Assembly: GCF_002214385.1 (NCBI RefSeq)
Contig: NZ_CP014855.1
Span: forward strand, 682,001 to 746,000
DNA: 64,000 nucleotides
Direction: 5' to 3'
From: Thermococcus gorgonarius
GTDB taxonomy: Archaea > Methanobacteriota_B > Thermococci > Thermococcales > Thermococcaceae
Shown here: positions 31,187 through 36,047 of the stretch, piece by piece
Numbering within the stretch: position 1 is the stretch's first letter
Layout of the letters: every line of letters begins with the position of its first letter
Notes under the pieces: generated by a model
Seen by the model: the letters and a program-made list of their open reading frames with translations, nothing else
Databases searched by the model: none
Told to the model about the DNA's origin: nothing
Position numbers and translations under genes: made by a program

Positions 31187-31464
31187 TGTTTGAAATCAGC
31201 ACCGTGAGTTAAAAGAGACGAAGCGCTTGGCTTCAGAAAACGTGAAGGTTGCAAGAATAAGGCAGAGATCTGAGGATCGTAGGATTGTGCAATGTTGATA
31301 TGGTGTTCAGGGGATTGATGTTTCCAGTAGAATTGGGTTTGAGGCCGCAGAGAAGCCAGAGAGGACACAGGTCTAATCACTGGGGTCGAGATAAACTATT
31401 TGGAATATCTTCACTCCAGAGGGGTCGAATTCCAAAAGGTGCAGAGAGAGCTTGAGGGTGTATA
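31187..31464 (+). pseudogene. Possible decayed gene fragment, unknown family
   Basis: Two stretches look like coding sequence but lie in different frames with stops between. Bases about 31192-31293 read ...KETKRLASENVKVARIRQRS then end at TGA. Bases about 31384-31464 read GVEINYLEYLHSRGVEF then KVQRELEGV before TAG. No intact frame joins them and no family is recognised. The whole space between the ABC operon and the filament locus (31113-31471) otherwise holds only the ABC promoter. This could equally be non-coding sequence. Confidence 0.25.
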
Positions 31465-31471
31465 GATGGGT

Positions 31472-32206
31472 TCAACTTGTTTGATCCGGTGCCTGGTCTG
31501 CGGTGTGCAGATTGCTTGCGTTCTCCTTTACGCTTTGAACGTACTTGAGGTAGCGGTCGAGACTTCTAATCGTGAGCAGAGCCGTGATGGCGGTTAGGAG
31601 CAGGATTATTGTGGGGACTGCTAAGACCAGGATTCCCCGGTAGAAGTAGATTCTGTGGACCCAGCTGAACGATACCTCTGTACTGTTCAGGCAGAGCCTC
31701 CCTGCCTGCGTCTCTATGCAGCTCCCCAAAGGTATTGCCGGGAGTATGTCACCGACCGTAACCCTCACCAAAGCTATTAGGAGGGTGAAGGACAACACCG
31801 CCGCTGCCGATGCCAGAACAAGGGTCTCGACGTGTCTGAGGTAGTCGTAGACTGGATTCCCGTGGAATGCACCCTTCACTTCCCTTGGCCTTGCTCTCAG
31901 AAACCCGATTGCGGCTCTAATACTGAGGATTACTGAGGCGAGGGAGAGGGCTATGAGGGGTACCGAAACCATCCGTAAGCTCTCCAACGGCCTGAGGATT
32001 GCTGGAGCACTGTAGACTTTGAGGCTGCTCCGGACAAGCGAGACGGTGCCGTCAGCTACATACCCCCTGTACACGGCAATCGGGGTGAAGACCGCCGCCA
32101 CTACGAGTAGTGAGAGTGCGGCAGACACCAGAGATGCAACTATGAAAAGGGCTTTAAGCTTCCTGCTCACCGGGCGTATAGGTTTGAGCTCAGCCGATCC
32201 TGACAT
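31472..32206 (-). CDS. Four-helix membrane protein of the filament locus
   Basis: ATG 32206 starts inside the end of the signal peptidase gene (17-bp overlap). The 244-residue product has four hydrophobic segments at about residues 18-45, 65-90, 115-138 and 180-205. The outer loop GSCIETQAGRLCLNST has two Cys that could form a disulfide. A polar C-terminal tail ends it. No family is recognised. As the last gene of the locus it may help anchor or export the secreted proteins encoded upstream; this is inferred from position only. Confidence 0.6.
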   Translation of the reverse strand: MSGSAELKPIRPVSRKLKALFIVASLVSAALSLLVVAAVFTPIAVYRGYVADGTVSLVRSSLKVYSAPAILRPLESLRMVSVPLIALSLASVILSIRAAIGFLRARPREVKGAFHGNPVYDYLRHVETLVLASAAAVLSFTLLIALVRVTVGDILPAIPLGSCIETQAGRLCLNSTEVSFSWVHRIYFYRGILVLAVPTIILLLTAITALLTIRSLDRYLKYVQSVKENASNLHTADQAPDQTS

Positions 32207-33374
32207 CCGTTCCCCACCCCCTCCTAGCACCAAGGAAGTCGTAGTACACCCTCAACCTGTAGACACCGGCCTTGGGCGCGAGCTGGGATAGGTCTACCAC
32301 CTGCACCGTCGCTGGGGGCGCCTCCACAGTTCTGGAGATGATCCCTGTGCCTGGGGAGTAAAGCTCGACCAGGAGGCTGAGGGGCAGAGGGTTACTGTTG
32401 TTCACCACGAGCTTCGACCCGTTTACTTCGAAGGAGGGGTCGGCCCACGTGAATGAAGCCACGTGGCTACCGATGAGCTGACCTCTGTCGTACTGCAGAG
32501 TGCATTTGACCACGAAGTGCTCTTCGATTCTGGCCGGGAACGACGTGAAGAGCGCGCGGCCATAGGATCTGTTCCAGAGGGTCTCGAAGAGGCCCCGGGG
32601 CAACTTAGCCTCGACAGCAATCCTGGAGCTGCTCAAGGATACAACGGACGTTTCAAGGGTGAAGCCTTCGGATACGCAGCTGGCGTTCAGGGGCCGGAAT
32701 CCAGGTGTCTCGACTACAAATGCGTACACGCCCCTCTCCAGGTCTAGACGCGATTCGGATAGGGCCGCCCGGGGCGTTGCATAAAACGGCCTTGTGTTGT
32801 CGATGTACATGGCCCCCGTGGCCAGGAAGTTCACGACGAGGAGCATGGCGAAGACGGCGTACAGGCGTTGATTAGCTTTCATCCCGTTCTTAGAGCTGTT
32901 TATATTGTTCACTCTGTTATTGTTATTATTGTTATCCCCATTTCGGTTGCGGAGAGAGAAATAAGCCAGAACACCCAGAGCAACAATAAACACCGGGATC
33001 CAGATGCGGGGGCTCACGGCGGCAACGGCTACATATGATACCTTAGAACCATCGAGAGGGGTTGTTGGGACCGGATTGGAGTCGCCTTTCAGAGTTACGA
33101 AGTTTTGCACCACGGTCTGGACTCTCCCGAGGATGCAGGCACTTCTCAGAGGATCCCAGCACCACAGAACAACGTCCCCCGCTCCAAAACTCTTGACGTA
33201 GGTTGCGACGCCGAGCACTATGCTCCCGGTCTCGGCCCAGGGCTCCATGGAGCCGCTCGAAGCCACGAAGAGCGCCACTGGGAGCCTCAATGTCTTTCCG
33301 AGAAAGAGCACCACAATAAGAACCAGCACCGCTAAAGAGATGCGACGCATCTTCGAATTTCCACTCTTACTCAT
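32190..33374 (-). CDS. SipW-like signal peptidase I with C-terminal exoplasmic domain
   Basis: ATG 33374 follows GGGGGT by seven bases. The 394-residue protein has a membrane anchor (about 10-36), then SSGSMEP with the catalytic Ser42 of signal peptidase I, and LKGDSN (Asp98), the conserved acidic motif. Where SipW/archaeal enzymes have His-Arg-Val, this protein reads ILGRV, so Gly83 seems to replace the catalytic His. After a second membrane segment and an Asn tract (about 143-160) comes a third membrane helix. A beta-rich domain of about 190 residues unusual for the family follows. It should process the two secreted proteins encoded upstream. Confidence 0.78.
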   Translation of the reverse strand: MSKSGNSKMRRISLAVLVLIVVLFLGKTLRLPVALFVASSGSMEPWAETGSIVLGVATYVKSFGAGDVVLWCWDPLRSACILGRVQTVVQNFVTLKGDSNPVPTTPLDGSKVSYVAVAAVSPRIWIPVFIVALGVLAYFSLRNRNGDNNNNNNRVNNINSSKNGMKANQRLYAVFAMLLVVNFLATGAMYIDNTRPFYATPRAALSESRLDLERGVYAFVVETPGFRPLNASCVSEGFTLETSVVSLSSSRIAVEAKLPRGLFETLWNRSYGRALFTSFPARIEEHFVVKCTLQYDRGQLIGSHVASFTWADPSFEVNGSKLVVNNSNPLPLSLLVELYSPGTGIISRTVEAPPATVQVVDLSQLAPKAGVYRLRVYYDFLGARRGWGTDVRIG

Positions 33375-33379
33375 TATTG

Positions 33380-34912
33380 TTACCCCCTGAATAAAAGCTT
33401 GGCCTTTAGGGACCCGTAGGTAGCCCAGCCGCTGAAGCTGTACCTCAGTTCCACATCTACTTCGCAGACATAGCCCGAAGGTACCAATGCGCGCCCGTAG
33501 ACGTATCCAGCAACTCCGTCGCTTCCAGGGGTCATCACCACAACACTCGTCTCACCGCTGTAGATCTGGCCTTTGGTTATATTTATCGGTGTGGAGTAGT
33601 GGTTCGACGCATTGACGAGGTAGAGGTAAAGCCACCAAGGAACCGACGAGCAGTTCGTATTAACCAGCACGAGCCTGGCCTCGAAGCTGTCTCCAGCAAG
33701 GGTTGAGTCTACGCGCAGCAGGTTGCCGCTGAAGCCTATGCGGTACACGTCGCCCCCGACAACTTCGTTGAAGGTTTTGCTCCGCACGAGGTTGCCCAGC
33801 TCGTCGTAAACCTCGATCGTCGCGTTTGGGAATATGAAGCCGTCCCTGAAGTTCGGGTTCCCTGTATTCAGGTCAACATCCACATAGGGTGGCGGGTAAG
33901 CGTCGAGAACCGCCACACCACTGGAGTCGGCCACAGCCCGGGAGACCTCTCCGCCAGTACTGTTCTTCAAAACAACTTCCCAGCCAGCCGGAAGCCCGGT
34001 CACATATATCTCCCATGGAGGCGCGTCAACGGTTACGACGAGGTTATCGAAGTAGACGTTGCCTTTCCAATCGCCCTTACTTATCCAGTAGCCTATGCCA
34101 ACTCTATCTATATAAATTCTATAGGTAGGCGGTATCGTTACCGAGGTTTGGATGCTCCCGTTGAACCAGTGGATGGCCCTCCAAGAAGAGAAATTGACCT
34201 CCGAAGCTACGTAAGTCAGGTAGTTTTCCTCGGTGACATAACTTGTCCCGAGAGAGGTGGTATTCAGCTGTGTGGATGCGGAGTACTGTATAATCGAGTT
34301 TACGGTTTCACCGTTTCTACCAGATTGTAGGGTGCCTTCCCACCCAATGTTATAATATGTTCTTCGAGTAGTGTTAAAATATACGGAGTCAAATCTGTTG
34401 GTCTGGCTTCCCGGACCATTAAGGGTGCCCCTCCACACAAGGAACGCCACATACACGGTTCTCCCTTCTTTAGCGTACTGGGATACGTCTATGTTTGCGT
34501 AGGCTATGCATTCAGCCTTAATTCCATTTACTTTGATACTGACCGCTCCAGCGTTGGTGTCATAGCCCCACTTATCACGACATTCTTTCGGCTCCCTGGG
34601 AACGATTAGCCTTGTACCTATGGGACTCGTGTCGAAGGTGTCGAAGAATATTGCACTCCTCTTCTCGAGAACCAGGTCTATGGTGGCGTTTGCGTAGACG
34701 TCTCCAGCTGTTCCGTAGTTGTAGAGGCTAACGGTTACATTAGGGCTCCCCGGATCAGCGAGTCTGACCACCGGCGGTGAGACAGTTGCTGTTGAATCCA
34801 TCCACCTGTATGTGAATACCGAGCCCAAGACTACCTGGAGTAACATAGGTAAGACGAGCAGAAGAACAAGCACGGCGTACAATAGCGTTTCCCTTGCCAT
34901 CGCTTTATTCAT
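33380..34912 (-). CDS. Large secreted beta-rich protein with SipW-type signal, filament locus
   Basis: ATG 34912 follows GGAGGT by seven bases. The 510-residue protein has one hydrophobic signal segment (about 10-33). FTYRWMDSTATVSPP follows, the same motif found after the signal of the small protein upstream. The rest is beta-rich, with many Asn-x-Ser/Thr sequons and a few Cys. No C-terminal anchor is obvious. It may be an adhesive, capping or anchoring subunit of the same filament. Its 3' end lies 5 bp before the signal peptidase start. No enzyme domain is recognised. Confidence 0.7.
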   Translation of the reverse strand: MNKAMARETLLYAVLVLLLVLPMLLQVVLGSVFTYRWMDSTATVSPPVVRLADPGSPNVTVSLYNYGTAGDVYANATIDLVLEKRSAIFFDTFDTSPIGTRLIVPREPKECRDKWGYDTNAGAVSIKVNGIKAECIAYANIDVSQYAKEGRTVYVAFLVWRGTLNGPGSQTNRFDSVYFNTTRRTYYNIGWEGTLQSGRNGETVNSIIQYSASTQLNTTSLGTSYVTEENYLTYVASEVNFSSWRAIHWFNGSIQTSVTIPPTYRIYIDRVGIGYWISKGDWKGNVYFDNLVVTVDAPPWEIYVTGLPAGWEVVLKNSTGGEVSRAVADSSGVAVLDAYPPPYVDVDLNTGNPNFRDGFIFPNATIEVYDELGNLVRSKTFNEVVGGDVYRIGFSGNLLRVDSTLAGDSFEARLVLVNTNCSSVPWWLYLYLVNASNHYSTPINITKGQIYSGETSVVVMTPGSDGVAGYVYGRALVPSGYVCEVDVELRYSFSGWATYGSLKAKLLFRG

Positions 34913-34956
34913 TCCACAGACCTCCGCTGAGCTGGCAACAATCAATGCGCTTTTTC

Positions 34957-34975
34957 ATAATAATAAAAATAAAAG
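34957..34975 (-). terminator. T-rich terminator between small subunit and downstream locus genes
   Basis: Read on the minus strand this is a T-rich run (TCTTTTATTTTTATTATTA) placed about 45 bases after the stop of the small secreted protein and before the large one. Partial termination here would make the small protein more abundant than the other products. Confidence 0.45.
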
Positions 34976-35017
34976 ATGGGTTCAAAACTCGTTCAGATCG
35001 GCTCACTCTGACTGGGG

Positions 35018-35671
35018 TCACCTCGGTGGCTCGCTGGACTGCTGGTTGGCGTAGAATCCGACCTGGAATGGGTATGTACCAGTGGTGTTAGTGTCGAAGA
35101 GCAGGTCTATCTGCAGTGCTTCGCCCGGGTTGAGGGTTACCGATGTATTTGATGAAGTCGTCAGATCCAATTTACCAACCTGGGTGCCATCCGTAGCATT
35201 GTATAGTATGAGAGTCGCGTTCTGCACTCCGCTCACGGGCGTCTCAACCTTTATCCACACGGTGACTGGACCGCCGCTAGTAGCATTGGAGTATCCAAAG
35301 CCATAGAAGTCCTTGATGTACCAGCTGCCAACCGTCAAGTTGAATTCCGCGGATATGCTCTCGTAGAGATTGTACGTGTTGACTCCGTCAGTCCACTGGC
35401 ACACCGAGTCACCGGTTGTAACGCTGATGTTATTGTTTCCATACGTATTTGCATCGAAGTTGGTGCCCGCCTCTGGCAGATATGTTGGACTTATACCGTC
35501 CTGGGCCTTTGAGCTGTAGAAGCCCACGCACGCAGCTCCAGCCGCCTGATCAGCTGGGGCTACGGTAACCGTGCCCTGCATCCACCTGTAGGCGAATGCA
35601 GCGGCGTTCACCATGGCTGCTAGAGCCACCAACACCAGTACTGAGGCTATCACTGCGTTCCTCTTCTCCAT
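35018..35671 (-). CDS. Small secreted filament-like (TasA/AbpA-type) protein
   Basis: ATG 35671 follows AGGAGGTGG. The 217-residue protein has a short basic start, a hydrophobic signal segment (7-27) and a probable signal peptidase site after Ala-Phe-Ala27. The mature protein would begin YRWMQGTVTVAPAD, a likely exposed beta strand. The body is Ser/Thr/Asn-rich, beta-strand-rich and has two Cys (48 and 91) that may pair, plus several N-glycosylation sequons. There is no class III prepilin motif. Size, signal type and adjacency to a SipW-like peptidase fit TasA and the archaeal bundling pilus subunit. Similarity is of architecture, not proven homology. Confidence 0.7.
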   Translation of the reverse strand: MEKRNAVIASVLVLVALAAMVNAAAFAYRWMQGTVTVAPADQAAGAACVGFYSSKAQDGISPTYLPEAGTNFDANTYGNNNISVTTGDSVCQWTDGVNTYNLYESISAEFNLTVGSWYIKDFYGFGYSNATSGGPVTVWIKVETPVSGVQNATLILYNATDGTQVGKLDLTTSSNTSVTLNPGEALQIDLLFDTNTTGTYPFQVGFYANQQSSEPPR

Positions 35672-36047
35672 CTCTTACCACCTCCTGTCTGCACCCGTTT
35701 GGGCATCTTATACTAACAATTTCACCTTAAAACTTTTTTGCCGAAACAGGCTACTCTTGGGGGGGGCCATTTAGGGGTTCTTAGTTCACTGATAGTCTTT
35801 CGAGGACGCCTAGTAGCTTCAATGTGGGTAGAGTGGTGACGTGAAGCCCCTTGTTTCATTGGCCTGTTCTTGAGCGACCCCCTCGAGATCTTATTATGTC
35901 TTAACAGTTTAAAGGTGTTTCGACGACTTAGGGGCTGTTGGGTGGTTTAATAACTTATATGGTTTGAATCTAGGAACACCATTAGCGAGAGAGGGATCAC
36001 CTTTCTCCTGATGCCCTTCCCGAATCGCTGTGGAACAGGACCACCTC
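35672..36047. other. Long upstream region of the filament locus
   Basis: About 375 bp without a supported gene. On the minus strand TATA-like elements occur close to the first gene (GTTTTAAGG and AGTATAAGA, about 35713-35735). A second TTTAATAACTTATATGG cluster occurs at about 35944-35960. An 8-G run at about 35759-35766 stands out. The length suggests room for regulation of the filament locus. I see no inverted repeat above 7 bp and no guide RNA. Confidence 0.4.

Follow-up and report, generated by a model that had tools for sequence, protein, structure and literature searches.

The window analysed here, a stretch of 64,000 nucleotides of the Thermococcus gorgonarius genome, carries four consecutive open reading frames on the minus strand between positions 31472 and 35671, and the coordinates and lengths given in the initial annotation for these same-strand genes were confirmed. 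They encode P0001 (35018..35671, 217 aa), the candidate thread-like major filament subunit; P0002 (33380..34912, 510 aa from the ATG, or 521 aa from an alternative upstream TTG), a large secreted protein; P0003 (32190..33374, 394 aa), a signal-peptidase-like membrane protein; and P0004 (31472..32206, 244 aa), a four-helix membrane protein. The P0001 and P0002 genes are 105 bp apart, only 5 bp separate P0002 from P0003, P0003 and P0004 overlap by 17 bp, and the gene starts are preceded by GGAGGT-type Shine-Dalgarno sequences, which together indicate an operon. Moreover, all four families stand side by side in other genomes too, and the genes are therefore not chance ORFs. Upstream of the pilin gene (minus strand, 35680..35743), the Shine-Dalgarno GGAGGT at 35680-35685 and a possible BRE/TATA at about 35727-35743 were recognized by eye. 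Between the P0001 and P0002 genes the coding strand has a T-rich run (34956..34975, minus strand), which, judging from its sequence, is a possible partial terminator that could make the pilin the most abundant product. Hydropathy analysis revealed one N-terminal hydrophobic segment each in P0001 and P0002, three in P0003, and four separate hydrophobic zones in P0004, in keeping with its earlier description as a four-helix membrane protein.

The signal peptide of P0001 is predicted to cover residues 1-23, with the cleavage site VNA-A at 23/24 and an invariant Ala23. The protein carries seven N-glycosylation sequons, and its cysteines C48 and C91 are invariant among the seven closest homologues. 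The AF2 model of mature P0001, built on a 32-sequence alignment, has a pLDDT of 94.1 and a pTM of 0.88 and consists of an extended tail and a head made entirely of beta structure, in line with the proposal of a secreted, beta-rich protein with a signal-peptidase-I signal. By inspection, the single hydrophobic stretch ends at the SPase-I-type site and is followed by the tail strand, unlike a type IV pilin, in which a class III signal peptide precedes a hydrophobic helix that stays in the mature protein; this agrees with the earlier statement that no type IV pilin signal is present. When the model was compared with the PDB by Foldseek, the single match under 1e-3 was 7PNB, the S. acidocaldarius thread (E 1.9e-6, probability 1.00, TM 0.58/0.61, identity 18%), and matches to carbohydrate-binding modules were weak. 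The protein in this structure is Saci_0406, the thread subunit of S. acidocaldarius (PDB 7PNB/8RZL, arCOG10215).

The sequence relationship runs through an intermediate family. The P0001 family (A1) aligned with a second pilin subfamily (A8) at a probability of 99.1% in hhalign, and the A8 profile matched 7PNB with an E of 2.1e-9. The A8 pilins, of about 200 aa, come from Desulfurococcales-type genomes and adjoin members of the P0003 and P0004 families; the large-protein, P0003 and P0004 families accompany both pilin types. Direct sequence searches of P0001, P0002 and A5 against the PDB returned no significant match, and the thread link of P0001 is visible solely via the fold and family A8; the 7PNB fold match and the bridge from A1 over A8 to 7PNB together place P0001 in the thread superfamily. 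A Pfam match of P0001 to the MOV-10 Ig-like domain (20 bits, cut-off 27.4) was treated as chance. It has been reported that a mature N-terminal Asp and a YYY motif are conserved in the described thread homologues (PMC9715654). Both are absent from P0001, which has Ala and AYRW at these places (AAFAYRWM), and we therefore regard it as a thread relative and not as a strict member of arCOG10215.

Threads have been described as having an N-terminal tail, SPase-I cleavage after Ala23, donor-strand complementation and heavy N-glycosylation (PMC9715654; PMC11607397). In P0001 the candidate donor strand comprises residues 24-37, AAFAYRWMQGTVTV (35561..35602, minus strand), and is positionally equivalent to DVIYYYQGQITV of Saci_0406. 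The corresponding candidate in P0002 comprises residues 31-44, SVFTYRWMDSTATV (34781..34822, minus strand), and is in register with the P0001 strand when both are counted from the predicted cleavage sites. The initial annotation had pointed to a common post-signal motif in the 510-residue protein, and this is corroborated by the comparison of AAFAYRWMQGTVTV with SVFTYRWMDSTATV, by a 19-nt repeat of 89% in the underlying DNA and by the profile-profile alignment of P0001 and P0002, which covers the N-terminal stretch only (34 columns, 92.6%). Beyond the tail motif, the P0002 body comprises several beta domains, for which no significant Pfam or PDB match was found. Threads use their N-terminal tail as donor strand (PMC9715654). 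Most simply, then, the two tails would fit one acceptor groove and P0002 would cap or tip the fibre, which makes it a candidate tip or cap adhesin. The 442-aa large neighbour of Saci_0406 (Saci_0404, L153 4825-6153) also starts with a pilin-like tail, SVYYFFQAQL.

P0003 had been described as a SipW-like signal peptidase with an extra outer domain, of which the signal-peptidase likeness and the outer module stand. It has a predicted signal-peptidase beta fold and three hydrophobic helices. It scored 38.2 bits against TIGR02228, below the cut-off of 51.85, and 19 bits against the SipW model, and S26 profile matches were obtained in 10/19 of its relatives. The catalytic positions are occupied by Ser42, Gly83 (the His position) and Asp98; the Gly83 codon lies at 33126..33128 on the minus strand, where P0003 reads CILGRV and its active relatives CIVHRL. 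Because the catalytic His is replaced, "signal peptidase" is probably wrong as a description of activity, and P0003 is very likely a pseudo-peptidase without catalysis. Among the unique full-length relatives the S/H/D positions are intact in 26/34 and lost in 8/34; in some of the degraded members Ser and Asp are gone as well and even the active-site loop is deleted, and the outer domain is retained throughout. All eight fall inside one well-supported 14-row group, and their placement in a single clade was not rejected (p-AU 0.378), which gives no support for several separate losses of catalysis within the family. That the signal-peptidase domain is degraded yet retained suggests an enzyme turned assembly factor.

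It might be argued that P0003 has remained active as an atypical signal peptidase dedicated to P0001 and P0002, with Ser42 working with another base, considering that Ser42 and Asp98 are kept, that the peptidase fold is predicted, and that relatives such as the one at L005 (8607-9728) keep the full triad. However, the His-to-Gly replacement, the loss of Ser and Asp in related loci that retain the outer domain, and the other signal peptidases encoded in the T. gorgonarius genome make this unlikely, as does the degraded locus L008, in which a separate intact signal peptidase gene lies two genes downstream. The outer domain of P0003 (residues ~200-394; 32193..32777, minus strand) is predicted to be all-beta, with pLDDT mostly above 90, and the folds nearest to it are those of tandem Ig/FnIII proteins, among which the chaperones FimC, YadV, Caf1M and PapD and FnIII cytokine receptors match alike at low TM. 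As cytokine receptors rank with chaperones and the TM values are low, a chaperone role of P0003 is offered here only as a working hypothesis. The P0004 family always adjoins the P0003 family. Comparison with the Sulfolobales neighbours of Saci_0406 did not support homology, either between their single-helix proteins and the P0003 outer domain (1% probability) or between their multi-helix protein and P0004 (14.7%). The S. acidocaldarius thread cluster (L153 4825-9494) contains this multi-helix membrane protein on the opposite strand, with its weak likeness (14.7%) to the P0004 family.

The products could instead be a secreted set of monomeric or S-layer-associated adhesins or sugar-binding proteins with their own membrane anchor, forming no polymer. 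Carbohydrate-binding modules often have beta-sandwich folds, P0001 gave weak matches to such modules, and P0002 resembles a multi-domain adhesin. Nevertheless, the specific fold match of P0001 to a filament subunit, the sequence bridge to Saci_0406 and the tail motif common to the pilin and the large protein are together hard to explain without strand exchange, which makes a non-polymeric set quite unlikely.

The initial annotation had assigned the locus to the TasA/AbpA bundling pili, in which a TasA-family P0001 would be processed by a SipW-like P0003. The logic is the same, with a secreted beta protein next to a gene that scores 19 bits against the SipW model, and donor-strand complementation is used by both kinds of fibre; the more general proposal of a non-type-IV, beta-rich fibre assembled in this way is in fact supported by fold and synteny. 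The assignment to TasA/AbpA itself, in contrast, is largely refuted and now improbable. When the predicted structure of P0001 was searched against the PDB by Foldseek, a check of the kind that had been suggested, no TasA or AbpA filament protomer stood among the best 50 matches, and the S. acidocaldarius thread was the only significant fold match. Besides, PF12389 (camelysin/TasA) matched 0/32 members of the pilin family, a whole-genome search with this model found three other loci and missed P0001, P0003 is without the catalytic His, and a PF12389/S26/DUF5305 cluster is already present at C1:1400353-1402934. On these PF12389 and fold results, membership of P0001 in TasA/AbpA was rejected.

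That TasA-type cluster (G000:C1:1400353-1402934; L012 2859-6956) lies in the same genome, about 0.7 Mb from the P0001 operon. Its products are two proteins with PF12389 and one further secreted protein, together with a DUF5305 protein and an S26 signal peptidase whose motifs are intact. Additionally, another SipW-like peptidase (367 aa, SESM/VHRI/KGD) is encoded at L168 (G000:C1:about 1235400-1238700), next to two similar secreted proteins of ~190 aa and a larger secreted protein, and forms a third candidate fibre locus.

The nearest relative of P0001 is a Desulfurococcales MAG protein (58%), and sequence searches turned up proteins 45-55% identical to it in MAGs of Desulfurococcales, Acidilobaceae and Thermosphaera; the family profile matched 33/229 genomes of the class that holds these Desulfurococcales-type relatives. 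Within its own genus P0001 was found in 1/61 genomes, that of T. gorgonarius, and the cassette is absent from the other 60. The initial annotation had suggested a check for synteny in other Thermococcales, where the cassette proved nearly absent: in this order, one other genome of 94 (G094) has a strong P0003-family match and the whole cassette (L057), and the arrangement is commonplace instead in Desulfurococcales-type genomes. All four families stand side by side at 11 loci in two gene orders, namely pilin, large protein, signal-peptidase-like protein and four-helix protein at the T. gorgonarius locus, L059, L072 and L077, and pilin, signal-peptidase-like protein, four-helix protein and large protein at L005, L007, L057 and L060-L063. 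The four-gene cassette of G094 (L057 3863-8156) has a differently degraded signal-peptidase domain and a pilin 40% identical to P0001. In several Desulfurococcales loci the main pilin gene is immediately preceded by a small, divergent pilin-like gene (L004 589-1158, L006 434-1003, L007 7317-7886, L060 5457-6023 and L008 5849-6382), which possibly encodes a cap or minor subunit; the T. gorgonarius operon has no such gene.

The sister species G003 is the closest of the same-genus genomes searched (its AGOG protein is 81% identical), and in it only 129 bp separate the flanking ABC permease gene from the AGOG gene, compared with 4.9 kb in T. gorgonarius; alignment junctions against this genome delimit an inserted segment at approximately 31229..36046. 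AGOG adjoins an ABC permease in many other same-genus genomes too. The absence of the cassette from the other 60 genomes and the clean empty site in the sister indicate that it was acquired horizontally, a conclusion that is well supported, and the donor would have been another, Desulfurococcales-like group of heat-loving archaea. Neither mobile-element end repeats nor a tRNA target was found at the insertion. An integrated virus or mobile element, with these four as its structural or cargo genes, would fit the clean insertion relative to the sister, but is highly improbable given that no tRNA lies nearby, no integrase or replication gene occurs within the inserted 4.8 kb, no significant viral fold match was obtained and the cassette occupies many chromosomal contexts.

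Taken together, these results make it likely that the operon, acquired horizontally, encodes an extracellular filament of the thread type, with P0002 as candidate tip or cap and P0003 and P0004 as candidate assembly factors. P0001 would be exported by Sec and cut after Ala23, probably by the general signal peptidase of the cell, steps that rest on the signal sequences and on family knowledge. P0003, with P0004, would then hold the subunit at the membrane; P0003, a signal-peptidase derivative that has lost its His, may, anchored in the membrane, assist assembly or act as a chaperone through its outer Ig-like module, roles for which conserved linkage and fold are the basis. The N-terminal tail FAYRWMQGTVTV of each P0001 would complete the beta sheet of its neighbour and so yield a polymer, as homology to threads suggests. 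P0002, whose tail is the same and whose body is larger and has several domains, could take one fibre end as an adhesive tip or cap, and the fibre may serve adhesion. Thread filaments combine donor-strand complementation with an isopeptide link. Counting against the thread model are the moderate TM of ~0.6, the identity of 18%, the lack of Asp1 and YYY, the generic fold matches of P0003, and the unsupported homology of P0003 and P0004 to the Sulfolobales neighbours of Saci_0406. A broader and more tentative possibility is that thread-type filaments are made by a hitherto unrecognized archaeal assembly module, consisting of a four-helix membrane protein and a signal peptidase that bears a tandem Ig-like chaperone domain on its outer side, and that in one branch, including T. 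gorgonarius, the peptidase has become a catalytically dead, anchored chaperone or platform.

Compared with known systems, the locus resembles the Saci_0406 thread in subunit fold, in the SPase-I signal cut after Ala23, in a tail followed by a beta head and in its many sequons, and differs in that P0001 has a conserved Cys pair instead of mature Asp1 and YYY. Likewise, the Saci_0406 cluster has a large secreted neighbour (Saci_0404) and a multi-helix membrane neighbour, whereas T. gorgonarius has a signal-peptidase-derived neighbour with an Ig-like outer domain and no Saci_0405-type cap gene. Pyrobaculum AbpA and Bacillus TasA/TapA/SipW share a non-type-IV, SPase-I-processed, beta-rich subunit, a SipW-like gene in the cluster and expected donor-strand assembly, although P0001 has no PF12389 similarity and, among its best 50 PDB matches, no significant fold match to them, and P0003 lacks the catalytic His. 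From the archaeal type I signal peptidase and SipW families (TIGR02228, NF046067), P0003 has kept the N-terminal beta domain and the SxSM and KGD motifs, and it departs from them in the His-to-Gly change, two extra helices and the outer domain. That outer module is predicted to be similar to tandem Ig-like proteins including the FimC/PapD chaperones of chaperone-usher pili; however, in P0003 it is part of a membrane-anchored protein with a signal-peptidase fold, there is no usher and no sequence similarity, and the likeness is likely one of analogy.

Threads have been described in crenarchaea only, and their assembly machinery has been stated as unknown (PMC9715654; PMC11607397). Full-text searches of the open-licence literature gave no account of Thermococcus making threads or donor-strand filaments. 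Through horizontal transfer of this compact set of four genes, a relative of the threads has entered a euryarchaeal lineage, and, being self-contained, the cassette could be moved into a tractable Thermococcus to ask which genes suffice for a filament. The locus matters because P0003, an apparently dead peptidase with an Ig-like domain, and P0004 are candidates for the machinery of thread assembly.
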